From positions 1 to 48,024 of the forward strand of contig JAFTBM010000060.1 in the NCBI GenBank assembly GCA_017455205.1: 48,024 bases of DNA, in the 5' to 3' direction. Positions within the stretch are counted from its first letter, which is position 1, and every line of letters starts with the position of its first letter. Source of the stretch: Bacteroidales bacterium (GTDB taxonomy: Bacteria; Bacteroidota; Bacteroidia; Bacteroidales; P3). The notes beneath the pieces are model-generated. The model did not search any database, was not told the DNA's origin, and saw only the letters and a program-made list of their open reading frames with translations. Of this stretch, positions 4,100 through 47,005 are shown in pieces. The position numbers were made by a program, and so were the translations under genes.

Positions 4100-5389
4100 A
4101 TGACACTCCGTAGATTAAGACCTTGGCTAATGTTTGTAGCCACCACCACCGTGCTGATGCATTCGTGCATCAAGGACTTGGAGGTGGAGGGAATCTATCC
4201 CGAGGGGAACGTGCGAGGACGAGTGGTGGAACGCAGCTCGCAGCAGCCCGTCGGTGGGCTTGCGGTGAAGCTCATCTGCGACGGAGCCACACTCGCCTCC
4301 ACCACCTCGGCTGATGATGGCAGGTTTACCTTCAGGCTGACAGCGGAGAGGATGGCCGATGGGTGCCAAGTGGTGGTCAGTGCCGACTCGTTGTATGCTG
4401 GATGCAGTGCCGATGTGCCCAATGGAGGATTCGGTCGGGAGGAATACGACCTCGACGTGCTATTCGTCGAGGGGCCTGGGCTTCCTGTGGTGCATACCAA
4501 GTCGGTAGCATCTGATGCCGTCGGCGCCACCACAGCGACGCTTGCTGGCAGTGTGGAGGACGACCTTCGCTCGGCCGTCGTCAGCCGTGGCTTTGCCTAC
4601 AGCACCCTGCAATATCCCACGCTGGCCAACGGGAGCGTGTCGGCCGGCGGAGGATTGGGCGATTTCAGCGCCATCGCCACAGGTTTGCAACCTGGCATCA
4701 CCTACTATGTGCGTGCCTACGCCACCAATGGCGTGGGTACAGCCTACGGCGAGCAGCAGAGCTTCACCACCCTTAGTGGTCTTCCCATGGTCGCAACCGC
4801 AGCCGAAGCTTCGCTACTCGGCGTCAGCTCCGCCCAGTGCGGTGGCACGGTAACAGGCGATGGTGGCTTTGCCGTCACCGCTCGTGGAGTCTGCTGGAGC
4901 GTCGCTCCATCGCCCACGGTGAGTAACCTGCACAGCAACGATGGCACCGGGTTGGGCGCCTTCGTCAGCACCCTGACGAGCCTGCAACCAAGCACCACCT
5001 ACTATGTGCGTGCCTACGCCACCAATGCCAACGGCACCGTCTACGGCGAGCAGCGCACCGTCGCCACACCCAGCGGGATGCCCACTGTCACTACAACATC
5101 TGCCAGCAGCATCACCGCCACCTCTGCCGTCTGCGGCGGCGAAGTGGCCACCGATGGGGGCTATGCTGTCGCCGCCCGCGGTGTCTGCTTCAGCACCACA
5201 CCCGAACCCACCACCTCAAGCCCACACACCACCGATGGCAGCGGCACAGGTGCATTTGTCAGCAACCTCACATCGCTATCCGCAGGCACCACCTACTACT
5301 ACCGCGCCTACGCCACCAACGCCACAGGCACAGTGTATGGTGAGGAACGGACATTTCGCACCAGCGAATTAGGTGCCAAAAACCGATAG
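4100..5389 (+). CDS. Surface lipoprotein with fibronectin-like repeats
   Basis: 429 residues from the ATG at 4100. An open frame runs further upstream but overlaps the preceding gene and lacks a signal. The N-terminus ends in VLMHSC, a lipobox with Cys at 23. Residues 35-120 look like a carboxypeptidase-regulatory/CNA-B-like beta-sandwich (VRGRVVERSSQQPVGGLAVK, then TTSADDGRFTFRL). Three repeats of about 90 residues follow, each closing on TTYYVRAYATN and GTVYGEQ-like text; they are fibronectin type III-like repeats known from many Bacteroidota surface lipoproteins. The last gene of the 829-5389 operon, it is a likely surface-exposed binding or scaffold protein. No catalytic residues are visible. 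A repeat element begins 60 bases after the stop. Confidence 0.75.
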   Translation: MTLRRLRPWLMFVATTTVLMHSCIKDLEVEGIYPEGNVRGRVVERSSQQPVGGLAVKLICDGATLASTTSADDGRFTFRLTAERMADGCQVVVSADSLYAGCSADVPNGGFGREEYDLDVLFVEGPGLPVVHTKSVASDAVGATTATLAGSVEDDLRSAVVSRGFAYSTLQYPTLANGSVSAGGGLGDFSAIATGLQPGITYYVRAYATNGVGTAYGEQQSFTTLSGLPMVATAAEASLLGVSSAQCGGTVTGDGGFAVTARGVCWSVAPSPTVSNLHSNDGTGLGAFVSTLTSLQPSTTYYVRAYATNANGTVYGEQRTVATPSGMPTVTTTSASSITATSAVCGGEVATDGGYAVAARGVCFSTTPEPTTSSPHTTDGSGTGAFVSNLTSLSAGTTYYYRAYATNATGTVYGEERTFRTSELGAKNR

Positions 5390-5448
5390 CGCCCAAAACA
5401 CCTTATCGAAAATCTCGTAATGGGAAAGATTTTTTTCTTGTGGAGGGA

Positions 5449-5570
5449 GGGACTTGGTCCGTATCAACTCCGTGTCATCTCCGTGTCACCTCCGTGTCAC
5501 CTCCGACTCCAGTCGGACCAAACACGGACCAAACACGAACCAAACACGGCTCGAACACGGCTCAAGTCCC
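5449..5570. repeat. 122-bp inverted element of 11-bp units, family 1 copy A
   Basis: The element has 59-base halves around a 4-base centre (tcca). Its ends are GGGACTTG and CAAGTCCC. The left half holds four units of the form (C/G)TCCGTGTCAN; the right half holds four units of the form CCAAACACGGA. When the halves are paired, each 11-base period gives 7 pairs (TCCGTGT with ACACGGA) and a 4 x 4 mismatch, and the centre closes with TCCGAC/GTCGGA. Copy B at 19964-20085 has the same length and layout. It lies 60 bases after the envelope operon. It could act as a DNA cruciform, a phased protein-binding array or an RNA hairpin. Confidence 0.85.
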
Positions 5571-5990
5571 TACCAGCAGCACTGCTGCTTGCGAGGTATC
5601 CCAGAAGCCTTGCATTTGCAGCCCCTGGCGATGATTGTCCGCAAGATATTTTGGGCACAATTGAAAAAGTTGAAAAAAACGGCTGGAAATATCCAGAAAA
5701 AACAGCGCATTTGCAGTCAGCAATGAGATGCAACATAATAGGATAAATTAAAAAACAACAGATTAAGAAACAGAAATTTAGCAAGAGAACGGACATCTAT
5801 ATATAATAGCAATTCGTGCTATTCTTGATAACCAAATTTCCACATCGTCCCCATAAGTGGGGGCTTATCAATGCAAGAATAGGTCGACGAAGCGCCGTGC
5901 ATCGGCGTGGAATGGATCAGTTTGCATTGAAGGGCGTGGAAACCCTGGTTATCAGACGAAAGTTACGTTCCACGCTTTTCTTTTTGCTAT
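5571..5990. other. Gene-free spacer before the sigma-factor gene
   Basis: No gene is visible. The only structures are a short palindrome around 5807-5821 (TAGCA/TGCTA) and an 8-base inverted repeat, GCGTGGAA at 5934-5941 and TTCCACGC at 5968-5975, followed by the T-rich run TTTTCTTTTT. The latter lies just before the sigma-factor start and could be an attenuator-like hairpin. No clear TAnnTTTG promoter was found; TATTCTTG at about 5818 is one mismatch away. Confidence 0.5.
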
Positions 5991-6744: not shown

Positions 6745-7008
6745 TTATACACTTATCAATGGAACGCCCAGAGTGGTAGATATTTTGGCGAGAATAGCCA
6801 ATGTAAAGTTGTGGGTACCGCCAACCCAGCGGCACACTTCGGCTTCGGAGCGTCCTATTTGTTTGGCAAATTCTTTTTGCGTCATTCCTCGTTCCTTCAA
6901 GATGCCATCTATTTTGTCGGCAATCTCGAATGACCAGTCAACACGCTGCTTAATATCCTGCGGCGTGGATGCAATCATTTCGTTGAAAAGATCTGATGTT
7001 TTGCTCAT
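6745..7008 (-). CDS. XRE-family helix-turn-helix protein (likely antitoxin or repressor)
   Basis: 87 residues. Residues 30-85 form a Cro/CI-type helix-turn-helix: DKIDGILKERGMTQKEFAKQ, then IGRSEAEVCRWVGGTHNFTL and AILAKISTTLGVPL. Such proteins bind palindromic operators and often act as antitoxins that repress their own operon. It is the last of three minus-strand genes with DUF4160 and DUF2442 members upstream (gap of 31 bases). The DNA is A+T-richer than the flanking sigma-factor gene, which fits acquired DNA. The fold is confident; the antitoxin role is inferred from gene order and small size. It could also be a repressor for a lost element. Confidence 0.85.
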   Translation of the reverse strand: MSKTSDLFNEMIASTPQDIKQRVDWSFEIADKIDGILKERGMTQKEFAKQIGRSEAEVCRWVGGTHNFTLAILAKISTTLGVPLISV

Positions 7009-19848: not shown

Positions 19849-19963
19849 AATTTTTCCCCACAGCAGTCAATTTCTTCATTGCAATGCCGAAAACACATTT
19901 CACCCATTCGGACTTACCCACGCCTCCTATCAGTTTTCGACTGCCAATTTTCAATTTTCAATT

Positions 19964-20085
19964 GGGACTTGGTCCGTGTCATCTCCGTGTCAACTCCGTG
20001 TCAACTCCGTGTCACGTCCGACTCGATACGGACCAAACACGGACCATGCACGGGCCATGCACGGGCCAAACACGGGGGAAGTGGC
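19964..20085. repeat. 122-bp inverted element of 11-bp units, family 1 copy B
   Basis: It has the same length and layout as copy A (5449-5570): left half 19964-20022, centre tcga, right half 20027-20085. It starts with the identical GGGACTTGGTCCGT, has left units (C/G)TCCGTGTCAN and right units such as CCATGCACGGG and CCAAACACGGG. The last base of each left unit varies between copies (A, T, C), while the other ten are nearly fixed. It lies between the promoter of corA and the terminator of the M13 peptidase gene. Confidence 0.85.
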
Positions 20086-36051: not shown

Positions 36052-36434
36052 TCCACCCCAAAATAATTTCTCCACACCCCCCTCCTACCCGCCACCTCAC
36101 GCCCCGCAATTCCTATCCCCTCACCCTTCCTCCATCCCTCTCCCCCACCGCCAATGCATCGCCACTCCACTCCCTCGTTGTTCACCTTCCACCTGCCCAC
36201 CCAAACTATCTCACAAGCCACTTTCATCCCCCCGATTACTCCCCTCTTCAAAGCTCATTTCCCTCCCCTCTGCACCAAACCCGCAATCCTTTCCCCAGAA
36301 GCCCCAATTGAAGCAAAACAGCACCGCAACATACTCATTACAAGCATAATACAACCAAATTTCACTTTTTTGAAAAAAGGCGAAAAAAGGCCGATTTTTG
36401 CACTTTTCCAACTGCCTGATTGTCAGACACTGGC

Positions 36435-36532
36435 AGTGACCATCTCCTTACCATCTCCTTACCAACTCCTACCCATCCCCTACCCATCGCCTTCCGGGGT
36501 AGGATTTGATAGGGAGAAGAGGTGGAGATGAT
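36435..36532. repeat. Inverted element of 11-bp units, family 2 copy C
   Basis: After AGTG come five units of 11 bases: two identical ACCATCTCCTT, then ACCAACTCCTA, CCCATCCCCTA and CCCATCGCCTT (36439-36493). The right half is more worn (GGGGTAGGATT to GGTGGAGATGAT). The first 18 bases, AGTGACCATCTCCTTACC, occur identically, on the other strand, at the right end of copy D (46608-46715). It lies in the gene-free region between lpdA and dnaA. Confidence 0.75.
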
Positions 36533-37170: not shown

Positions 37171-38628
37171 ATGGCTATCAATATGGAAGAAGACTACAAG
37201 AGGGTCTGGAGGGAGTGCCTCGAAGTGATAAAGGACAGCCTTGGGCCAGAGAACAGCAAAGCCTACGAGACTTGGTTTACCCCCATAGTGCCGCTGCAGT
37301 TGAGCCGTGGGACACTGATTGTGCAGGTGCCGAGCCAGTACTTCTATGAATATTTGGAGGAGCACTACATTGACCTGCTGCGGCGGGTGATAAGGATGCA
37401 ACTGGGGGCAGGAGGAATGCTGAAATACAGCGTGGTGGTCGACCAAAGCATCGCCAGCCGTCCGATGGCGGTGACGCTGCCTTCGACTGGCCGACAGTCC
37501 ACCCGCAACCGTCCGAGCGACCTGCCCGTCAACCTTAATAAAGAGGGTTCGCGCGAGCTTCCCAATCCGTTTGTCATCCCTGGCATACAGAAGACGCGCA
37601 TCAACTCGCAGCTTAATCCCAACTGCACGCTGGAGAACTTCGTGGAGGGAGATTGCAATCGGTTGGCACGGTCGGCTGGCTACGCTGTGGCCGAAAAACC
37701 GGGGCAGACCTCGTTTAACCCCCTGCTGATTCACAGCAATGTGGGGCTCGGAAAGACCCATTTAGCCAACGCCATAGGGATGAAAACCAAGGAGCTTCAC
37801 CCCGACAAGGTGGTGCTCTACGTAACCAGTGAGCAGTTCATGGCACAATACGCCCAAGCGGGTCGCGATGGCTCGACCAACGATTTCATCCATTTCTACG
37901 AGACCATCGATGTGCTCATCATCGACGACATACAGTTTTGGGCAGGAAAAGCCCCCAAGACTCAGGAGGCCTTCTTTCACATATTCAACTATCTGCACCA
38001 GCGCAATTGCCAGATTATCATCACGTCGGACAAGGCTCCTGGTGAGCTTCAGGGCTTGGAGCACCGCTTGATATCGCGCCTAATGTGGGGGTTGGTGGCC
38101 GAGTTGCAGATGCCCGATGTGCAGACCCGCAAGCAGATACTGATGCAAAAGCTCCAGAACGAGGGCATTGAGATGAGTAATGATGTGGTGGAATATATCG
38201 CCTATAATATCAGTTCCAACGTGCGCGAGCTGGAGGGAGTGCTCATCTCGCTTATGGCACAAGGGTCGCTCAACCACAAGCAGATAACCATCGACTTGGC
38301 ACGGCAGATGGTGGATCGCTTTGTGCAGAGCAGCACGCGAGAAATCAGCATCAGCTACATTCAGAAGGTGGTCTGCGACACACTCAACCTGCCTGTGGAG
38401 TGCATCCAGCAGACCTCGCGCAAGCGCGAGATAGTGCAGGCTCGGCAGTTGGCGATGTACTTCGCCAAGCAAATCACCAAGTCGTCGCTTTCGGTCATCG
38501 GGATGCAATGTGGCAACAAAGACCACGCCACGGTGCTTCACGCTTGCAAACAGATCGAGAACCTGCGCCAGACCGACCGCCACACGCGTGCCTTGGTGGA
38601 GGAGTTGGAACGCAAATTTGCCGACTGA
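37171..38628 (+). CDS. dnaA: Chromosomal replication initiator DnaA
   Basis: 485 residues (ATG at 37171; another at 37183). Domain I is residues 1-90 (YETWFTPIVPLQLSRGTLIV; YFYEYLEEHY). After a linker the AAA+ domain starts near 150 (NPNCTLENFVEGDCNRLARS). Walker A reads SNVGLGKTHLANAIG, so the first Gly of GxxxxGKT is Ser. Walker B is VLIIDDIQFWAGK, and HRLISRLMWGLVAEL holds the sensor/Arg-finger region. Domain IV ends with a DNA-binding helix-turn-helix (KREIVQARQLAMYFAKQIT; CGNKDHATVLHACKQI) that reads DnaA boxes. It is the initiator that opens the origin. It is followed by a flavin reductase-like gene with a one-base stop-start overlap. Confidence 0.97.
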   Translation: MAINMEEDYKRVWRECLEVIKDSLGPENSKAYETWFTPIVPLQLSRGTLIVQVPSQYFYEYLEEHYIDLLRRVIRMQLGAGGMLKYSVVVDQSIASRPMAVTLPSTGRQSTRNRPSDLPVNLNKEGSRELPNPFVIPGIQKTRINSQLNPNCTLENFVEGDCNRLARSAGYAVAEKPGQTSFNPLLIHSNVGLGKTHLANAIGMKTKELHPDKVVLYVTSEQFMAQYAQAGRDGSTNDFIHFYETIDVLIIDDIQFWAGKAPKTQEAFFHIFNYLHQRNCQIIITSDKAPGELQGLEHRLISRLMWGLVAELQMPDVQTRKQILMQKLQNEGIEMSNDVVEYIAYNISSNVRELEGVLISLMAQGSLNHKQITIDLARQMVDRFVQSSTREISISYIQKVVCDTLNLPVECIQQTSRKREIVQARQLAMYFAKQITKSSLSVIGMQCGNKDHATVLHACKQIENLRQTDRHTRALVEELERKFAD

Positions 38629-46607: not shown

Positions 46608-46715
46608 CCAACCCCACCTCAACTCCTCATCATCTCCTATCCATCTCCTACCTAAAAAAAGGATGGGTAGGAGATGGGTAGGAGATGATAAGGCGTTGGT
46701 AAGGAGATGGTCACT
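46608..46715. repeat. Inverted element of 11-bp units, family 2 copy D
   Basis: On the plus strand the left half (CTCCTCATCATCTCCTATCC and on) and the right half (GGTAGGAGATGGGTAGGAGA and on) pair over about 30 bases with few mismatches around TAAAAAAA. Read on the minus strand it begins with AGTGACCATCTCCTTACC as copy C does, followed by ACCAACGCCTT-like, ATCATCTCCTA and CCCATCTCCTA units, all of 11 bases. One more CATCTCCTACC occurs just outside at 46746. Confidence 0.75.
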
Positions 46716-47005
46716 CTTAATGACTGATAATGAACTATTTGCAATCATCTCCTACCAAATTCATATTTTGTTGGTTTTCAAATTGTTACAAAATGGACAA
46801 TTTTGGGGGTGTTTAGGGAGTTTTGTCCCGTTTTCGATGCTTTCCGAATGAGCATTTTCTTCGCTCACGAGGGTCATCATGCTAATAACTGATGGCCTTT
46901 CGAGAGCTATTTGATGAAAATGCCATCGGCACCGACTACGCTACAAGATTGCATTTGAACAAGGTGAAGAATATTTGCTCCGCGATTGCTTTTTTTTTCG
47001 TAAAA
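46716..47005. other. Gene-free region before nqrA
   Basis: A+T-rich, with the open frames interrupted or made of repeat copy D. No gene is supported. It holds the promoter-like site for nqrA at its end. Confidence 0.5.

Follow-up and report, generated by a model that had tools for sequence, protein, structure and literature searches.

What is a 122-bp inverted element built of 11-bp units, and is it read as DNA or as RNA? The question arises in a 48,024-nt stretch of Bacteroidales DNA, the whole of which is referred to here as the window. The original prediction described an element at 5449-5570 with two 59-base halves around 4 bases and a second copy of exactly the same length and layout at 19964-20085. 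Both are present in the sequence as claimed, and we refer to the family as F1. Its features in the window are as follows.

5449..5570, + strand: copy A of F1, 122 bp, 59+4+59
5449..5507, + strand: left (constant) arm of copy A, GGGACTTGG cap followed by TCCGTRTCANN units
5508..5511, no strand assigned: 4-bp centre of copy A, variable between copies and species
5512..5570, + strand: right (variable) arm of copy A, NNNNWNNCACG units followed by an AAGTCCC cap
19964..20085, + strand: copy B of F1, with the centre TCGA at 20023-20026

A two-unit pattern matches the window eight times (0.02 matches expected from shuffles). In the genome to which the window belongs (G000), 78 distinct copies were extracted and aligned, nearly all with the 59+4+59 layout. 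Hence, the many copies of nearly fixed length that were expected of a functional element exist, and the opposite case, in which copies A and B are the only ones, does not apply. The 78 copies derive from a centre pattern without the outer left units (among the matches listed) and from fetched stretches, with 30 of them coming from a whole-element search (at least 43 matches, 40 of 85 candidates scored); extraction required at least one intact upstream unit and gave no copy for L083, which lies at a contig end. A three-unit pattern yields 330 matches, several per element, and none in the reversed control. The length of F1 is near-fixed with exceptions, namely extra left units in L028, L068, and L077 and one right unit fewer in L078 and L098. 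Extrapolation from 19 copies in a 448-kb sample of G000 gives approximately 90 per genome, and we estimate the total at about 80-100 copies, with a density of about one site per 24 kb. In G000, contigs C13, C23, C26, C34, C56, C57, C64, and C66 have an F1 copy no more than a few hundred bases from one of their ends, so F1 copies may be undercounted. In the same 448 kb, TCCGTGTCA occurs 75 times, 74 times in arrays and once in an F1 right arm, and its spacing is 11 in 54 of 55 cases.

The two arms differ strongly in conservation. Across the columns of the 78 copies, the left arm is almost invariant and consists of a cap ending in ACTTGG and four TCCGTGTCANN units. In units 1-3, which were absent from the centre search pattern, each core column has one base shared by 74-78 of the 78 copies. 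The arrangement deviates from the predicted single free base per unit, as two positions separate the 9-bp cores (TCCGTGTCA-NN). The NN dinucleotide depends on its place: units 1 and 2 are mostly followed by WC, unit 3 by GG or CC, and unit 4 by CC or CG. The centre reads TCCGAC-N4-GTCGGA and variants thereof. The right arm has CCAAACACGGA units as its consensus, and ACACG, recurring every 11 bp, is their best-kept part. It drifts, yet CACG and an A/T position (W) recur once per 11 bp. W is A or T at 370 of 375 positions in 75 copies (L064, L078, and L098 being dropped from the 78). In the 18 most divergent of these 75 copies, the right unit is reduced to NNNNWNNCACG with W being A/T at 89 of 90 positions (48 T, 41 A, 1 G), the CG being retained (C 68/72, G 70/72), and several other linker positions being mostly G or C. 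The partner of W in the opposite arm is an invariant A, with which T would pair and A would not, and both are common. C, which would permit a wobble on the other strand, hardly ever occurs at W. Because W faces an invariant A, pairing does not explain the interchange of A and T. Thus, W might be a contact in double-stranded DNA that tolerates inversion of an A-T pair, once per turn.

How closely the left arm is kept becomes apparent next to its surroundings. A loose flank pattern to the left of F1 is matched by 20 of the 78 copies including copy A; three of the 20 were left out of their alignment. The repeats that flank the window copies are listed below.

5386..5448, + strand: left flank repeat of copy A, left limit approximate, from the loose flank pattern
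5571..5660, + strand: right flank repeat of copy A, right limit approximate, a weak match (E 0.07)
19945..19963, + strand: (CAATTTT)n 7-bp tandem repeat abutting copy B, with a similar junction at many F1 copies

For 15 of the 20 flank-sharing copies (5 dropped), the mean pairwise identity is 71% in the homologous left flank, 76% in the right arm, and 99.7% in the left arm without NN. Therefore, something maintains or renews the left arm. This upkeep might be purifying selection or homogenization, and the free NN speaks for selection on the remaining left-arm bases. The exactness of the left arm is greater than selection for binding usually gives, and hence gene conversion or recent spread may act as well. 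The right flank of L018 matches six places, all beside arrays, with the place at copy A being the weak match; an empty site, i.e., the flank repeat without an array, was not found among the six. In many F1 left flanks (L008, L014, L017, L026, L082), 7-bp repeats of the type (CAATTYT)n or (TATAACC)n adjoin the element, and the junctions are similar. Other species of the genus also contain short matches to the (CAATTTT)n stretch. The F1 right arms in L104, L105, and L108 are near-identical, and next to these three copies lies another tandem repeat, of about 65 bp.

The inverted halves had been predicted to pair in regular 7-bp helices separated by 4 × 4 loops. This holds for the inner part of the + strand fold of copy A, while the outer loops are larger. 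As RNA, copy A folds with z scores of -7.5 (+ strand) and -9.1 (- strand), copy B folds more weakly (-2.8 and -2.6) with a minimum-energy fold that slips register, and two copies from the relative G024 fold like shuffles (-1.6 and -1.1). A G128 copy, which is a palindrome with a perfect fold, reaches z -21 and a copy of the F4 family z -8.3. At the gathering scores of Rfam, there are no matches in the window. The predicted covariation of the halves is not borne out: none of the 18 testable column pairs, i.e., those variable on both sides, shows complementary change in 77 copies, the invariant left arm leaving other pairs untestable. Only the central pair 60/65 is associated (z 9.5), in a non-complementary manner, and the mean z of the 18 pairs is 0.47. 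L064, which is cut by a contig end, was excluded from the arm-pair tests, the first of which gave the best 45 column pairs. Sliding the register does not lower the average score (sums 126-128 are higher, 122-124 lower).

Related species provide further information on pairing. At an orthologous locus, one left unit reads TA in G009 and AG in UBA2939, yet its counterpart in the right arm reads TA in either species. A comparison of G070 with UBA2939 shows changes in the first unit, which is partnerless there, and in all four central bases. Among the arrays listed for G024, the same kind of left array occurs mostly without an inverted partner. Thus, pairing does not seem to be the conserved feature in the F1-type species compared. 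The lack of arm covariation, the uncompensated unit change, and the partnerless arrays of G024 favor recognition at the level of DNA. In G128, however, some arms are perfect palindromes (55/55 in two copies), which look like a hairpin and count against DNA-level reading. The original prediction, which took an 11-bp period to place every unit on one face of the helix, raised a protein array, a cruciform, or a structured RNA. It is partly supported, in that DNA-level recognition is favored and pairing lacks support from covariation.

F1 and its relatives lie between genes. None of 36 clear-dyad arrays in 448 kb of G000 and one of eight dyad arrays in G128 is centred in a called gene. For the 63 F1 copies with both neighbors called (15 of the 78 without one or both being left out), 23 contexts are divergent, 33 tandem, and 7 convergent, compared with 12, 68, and 9 among 89 other intergenic regions of at least 100 bp. 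These counts use a codon-usage gene caller; a superseded crude ORF caller gave 21 convergent contexts. Divergent regions are enriched for F1 (23/63 vs. 12/89, p 0.0015), which could reflect their greater length and hence larger targets, and convergent regions are not (7/63 vs. 9/89). Beyond the divergent excess, these data revealed no rule of orientation or context for F1. A strand bias along contigs was considered and rejected, as neighboring copies have the same orientation in 22 cases and the opposite one in 16 (79 listed copies). The 139 proteins flanking 77 copies fall into 184 Pfam families, 25 of which were listed; none is found in more than three proteins, and no transposase family is among those listed. 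The same limit of three in 139 proteins applies to a putative adjacent gene for a cooperative DNA-binder, which did not emerge as a recurrent neighbor. Among 27 G024 loci, a Bacteroidota promoter motif lies on the right side of the array 15 times and on its left side 10 times, giving no clear rule.

The 11-bp design is not limited to F1. When G000 was scanned for self-match at a fixed lag, 448 kb contained 48 arrays of several families at lag 11. Lags 5, 6, 8, 10, 12, and 13 gave none, and others gave few (lag 7, 11 arrays; lag 9, five; lag 14, two; lag 15, one). In 160 kb of G128, 15 arrays have lag 11, 10 have lag 8, and six each have lags 9 and 14, counts that include two runs of N at each lag. 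G016 has three arrays at lag 11 and none at other lags in 120 kb, and G043, from another family, has none at lag 11 in 116 kb. In addition to F1, G000 contains at least three more inverted 11-bp families, and in the copies of F2, F3, and F4 listed, one arm is again more constant than the other. Two F2 arrays lie in the window.

36434..36501, + strand: F2 11-bp array (ACCATCTCCTT)
46609..46716, - strand: F2 11-bp inverted array (GGTAGGAGATG)

The array at 46609-46716 shares, in one of its arms, a stretch of approximately 55 identical bases with an arm of the L245:8187-8247 array. The array at 36434-36501 lies about 670 bp upstream of the ORF at 37171-38628, which presumably is a dnaA gene. In G128, the 11-bp arrays at L251:1805-2027 and 6751-6933 (e.g., CACTCCTCTAT) extend over 180-220 bp, far above the usual length.

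Beyond G000, the TCCGNNTCANN (TCCG) unit is found in 30 of 120 genomes of the genus, ranging from single matches to more than 100, with the reversed control of this search being nonzero in five other genomes (up to 9 matches). Across the order, nine of 393 genomes including G000 have any match. Three genomes of other families have real-looking TCCG arrays, with G471 having six places and a constant left array and G304 and G146 one array each. No lag-11 arrays were detected in 236 kb from 20 genomes of other families, and 257 kb from 20 arbitrary genomes of the same genus (12 of them with more than 10 kb sampled) contain two, both in G001. Relatives with matching stretches are Bacteroidales genomes assembled from rumen and yak metagenomes, e.g., RUG11699, RUG11969, RGIG9971, RUG156, and UBA2939. 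Of 32 matching stretches, 29 belong to Bacteroidales or Bacteroidetes; the other three are single matches in unrelated phyla, about the number expected by chance. The arrays are a lineage-limited class, for which "genus-wide" is too strong a term and which is not strictly restricted to the genus. The exact centre TCCGAC-N4-GTCGGA is present in seven of 28 loci from 28 other species, with differing N4, and many of these loci are without a clear dyad.

Is the position of an array kept when its letters are replaced? Upstream of two genes that have F1 in G000, other species often carry an 11-bp array of unrelated letters, with units such as TTCTTCAGTAG, AGCTGCTCTAT, and AATCGAAGAAC. Among orthologues with a gap of at least 150, upstream arrays were found in 15 of 26 and 6 of 9 for two genes with an array in G000 and in 2 of 14 and 7 of 21 for two control genes without one. 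The first gene had been picked for arrays already known from five species, the comparisons involve different sets of species and unequal gap lengths, and an 11-bp array is present in 37% of the upstream windows sampled in G000 (44 of 118). The counts are suggestive of arrays that stay in place as their letters are replaced. Flanking genes shared between G000 and G024 are near chance (five pairs, approximately 3.4 estimated, with 25 of 34 clusters listed). That some relatives keep the 11-letter rhythm and not the letters suggests that the DNA is read once per turn. An unlikely extension of this idea would make the arrays chromosomal sites of a new class, serving control or packaging. Phased 11-bp arrays would then occupy roughly one third of the promoter-bearing intergenic regions of G000, with positions kept across species and letters rewritten genome-wide, as if one co-evolving, filament-forming DNA-binding protein read the rhythm and occasionally switched dialect.

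The explanation we tentatively prefer is that F1 is a dispersed, non-coding, intergenic palindromic element of the REPIN/MITE/BIME kind, helically phased and read by a putative cooperative double-strand DNA-binding protein. In this model, each arm would be an array of 11-bp units, approximately one per helical turn, and the protein might contact the major groove at TCCG or CACG as well as one A/T base pair per unit. The left arm would then serve as a strong and the right arm as a relaxed half-site. The protein presumably co-evolves with the units, and copies may be spread or homogenized within each genome as non-autonomous elements. Gyrase wrapping, an uptake sequence, an RNA hairpin, and a decayed microsatellite are less well supported.

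A doubtful competitor is a REPIN- or MITE-like transposable hairpin, where single-strand hairpins would be moved by a transposase encoded elsewhere, the arms being transposase sites and the element being without a host function. High copy number, extragenic and inverted arrangement, one conserved arm, several families per genome, mixed orientation, and composite flanks all agree with it, as do the near-perfect palindromes of G128 with their similar outer ends. However, the 25 listed of the 184 families in the 139 flanking proteins, a survey of neighbors and not of the whole genome, include no transposase, and the six right-flank-repeat places include no empty site. Moreover, arrays occupy orthologous places in some related species, which implies that they have been resident for long, and most of the G024 arrays listed are without an inverted arm. 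Intergenic read-through might alternatively produce a structured RNA or a terminator-like hairpin. The strong folds of copy A, the G128 copy, and the F4 copy are in line with this idea, and 11 bp corresponds to a turn of A-form RNA. We regard it as improbable because complementary change is absent from the 18 testable pairs, one unit difference is uncompensated, two G024 copies fold like shuffles, and the window is without an Rfam match. Furthermore, F1 has no clear orientation to genes, and neither pairing nor wobble explains the W pattern.

Wrapping sites for DNA gyrase, analogous to BIME-2 with about 130 bp, a 4-bp cleavage centre, and helically phased arms, are a quite improbable reading. 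The E. coli gyrase motif spans 130 bp, is symmetric about a 4-bp cut, and has a GC periodicity of 10.75 bp in its arms, according to the sections cited (PMC6379681). The length, 4-bp centre, and 11-bp period of F1 resemble this motif, and its unequal arms recall the Mu SGS, whose right arm matters (PMC6379681). According to the same sections, the E. coli motif is degenerate and thought to be read indirectly, whereas the left arm of F1 is nearly exact. Furthermore, when 21 unit clusters were compared with permuted units, helical phasing exceeded the permutations neither in AT/GC (first harmonic of AT with a mean rank of 0.51, p 0.89) nor in bendability from a bend table (mean rank 0.485, p 0.84), which also counts against the explanation preferred above. 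Convergent regions are not enriched, and the G024 arrays listed are mostly without a dyad. Neutral tandem repeats, arising in constant 11-nt steps from slippage or from copying off a hairpin template, would fit the turnover of unit letters under a constant period, the 7-bp tandem repeats beside many F1 copies, and the G128 arrays with lags other than 11 (e.g., lag 8 with 10 arrays, two of them runs of N). Decay would not hold one arm at 99.7% identity beside a 71% flank, W and CACG are kept in divergent arms, and lags 10 and 12 are absent in G000, which makes this origin very improbable. Least probable by far is a DNA uptake signal with species dialects that spreads by biased uptake. Such dialects are known in Neisseriaceae (PMC3630211, in the part cited), and the species-specific sequence, high exactness, and many sites of F1 would agree. 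In 448 kb, however, no single units lie outside F1 elements (74 of 75 in arrays, one in an F1 right arm), and the density is only about one site per 24 kb.

How does F1 relate to known systems? In accordance with the original prediction, no named element with this design was found in the open-access literature on 11-bp, inverted, tandem, or interspersed intergenic repeats of Bacteroidales or Bacteroidetes. Integron attC sites (VCR) are of similar length, and set beside their cassette arrays, F1 copies are scattered between varied genes. For the RU-1 elements, which we take to be ERIC, we know of no 11-bp design. The following comparisons draw on parts of the articles cited. RU-1 elements are enterobacterial, have 127 bp, and resemble F1 in length, intergenic location, and MITE-like character (PMC2759123). 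REPINs of the REP-RAYT system are likewise extragenic and of high copy number, with a hairpin-capable inverted pair, conserved parts, and several families per genome (PMC3116915). They consist of two REP sequences and a spacer, whereas the arms of F1 are unequal tandem 11-bp arrays, and compensatory changes are reported to be common in REPINs (PMC3116915), in contrast to none in 18 testable pairs of F1. BIMEs are repeats preferred by gyrase (PMC6379681); unlike BIME-2 and strong gyrase sites, F1 has a nearly exact arm and units without an excess of AT/GC phasing. Plasmid parC and iteron arrays share with F1 tandem repeats of about one turn (11 bp in R1), on which a protein, ParR, assembles. 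However, parC is a plasmid partition locus with direct repeats (PMC9426499), while F1 has about 80-100 genomic copies that are mostly inverted. PINSR of Prevotella intermedia is a lineage-specific Bacteroidales repeat with 177-184 intergenic copies and unknown function, and about three quarters of its places are kept between two strains (PMC4755523). It differs from F1 in its length of 188 bp, in being reported without terminal inverted repeats, and in that section 3.4 of the article describes no 11-bp units (PMC4755523). On the basis of these sources, PINSR is the nearest parallel in lineage and REPINs are the nearest in kind.

If one protein reads the arrays once per turn, these bacteria would possess a dense, genome-wide system of sites. 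The host, a bacterium of the gut or rumen, belongs to a lineage represented here by metagenome assemblies alone. The model would also make two questions testable: what keeps a near-exact sequence constant at some 80-100 scattered positions whose flanks have diverged, and how a sister species replaces the sequence while period and layout stay.

Carriage of F1 by phages or plasmids was considered as well and rejected, as the searches gave no match. In viral contigs, 13 stretches were found with single matches only. One position in a 57-kb IMG/VR contig (L418:2901) reads CATCAAC-TCCGAGTCAAC-TCCGAGTCAAC-TCCGAC and looks like a true array.
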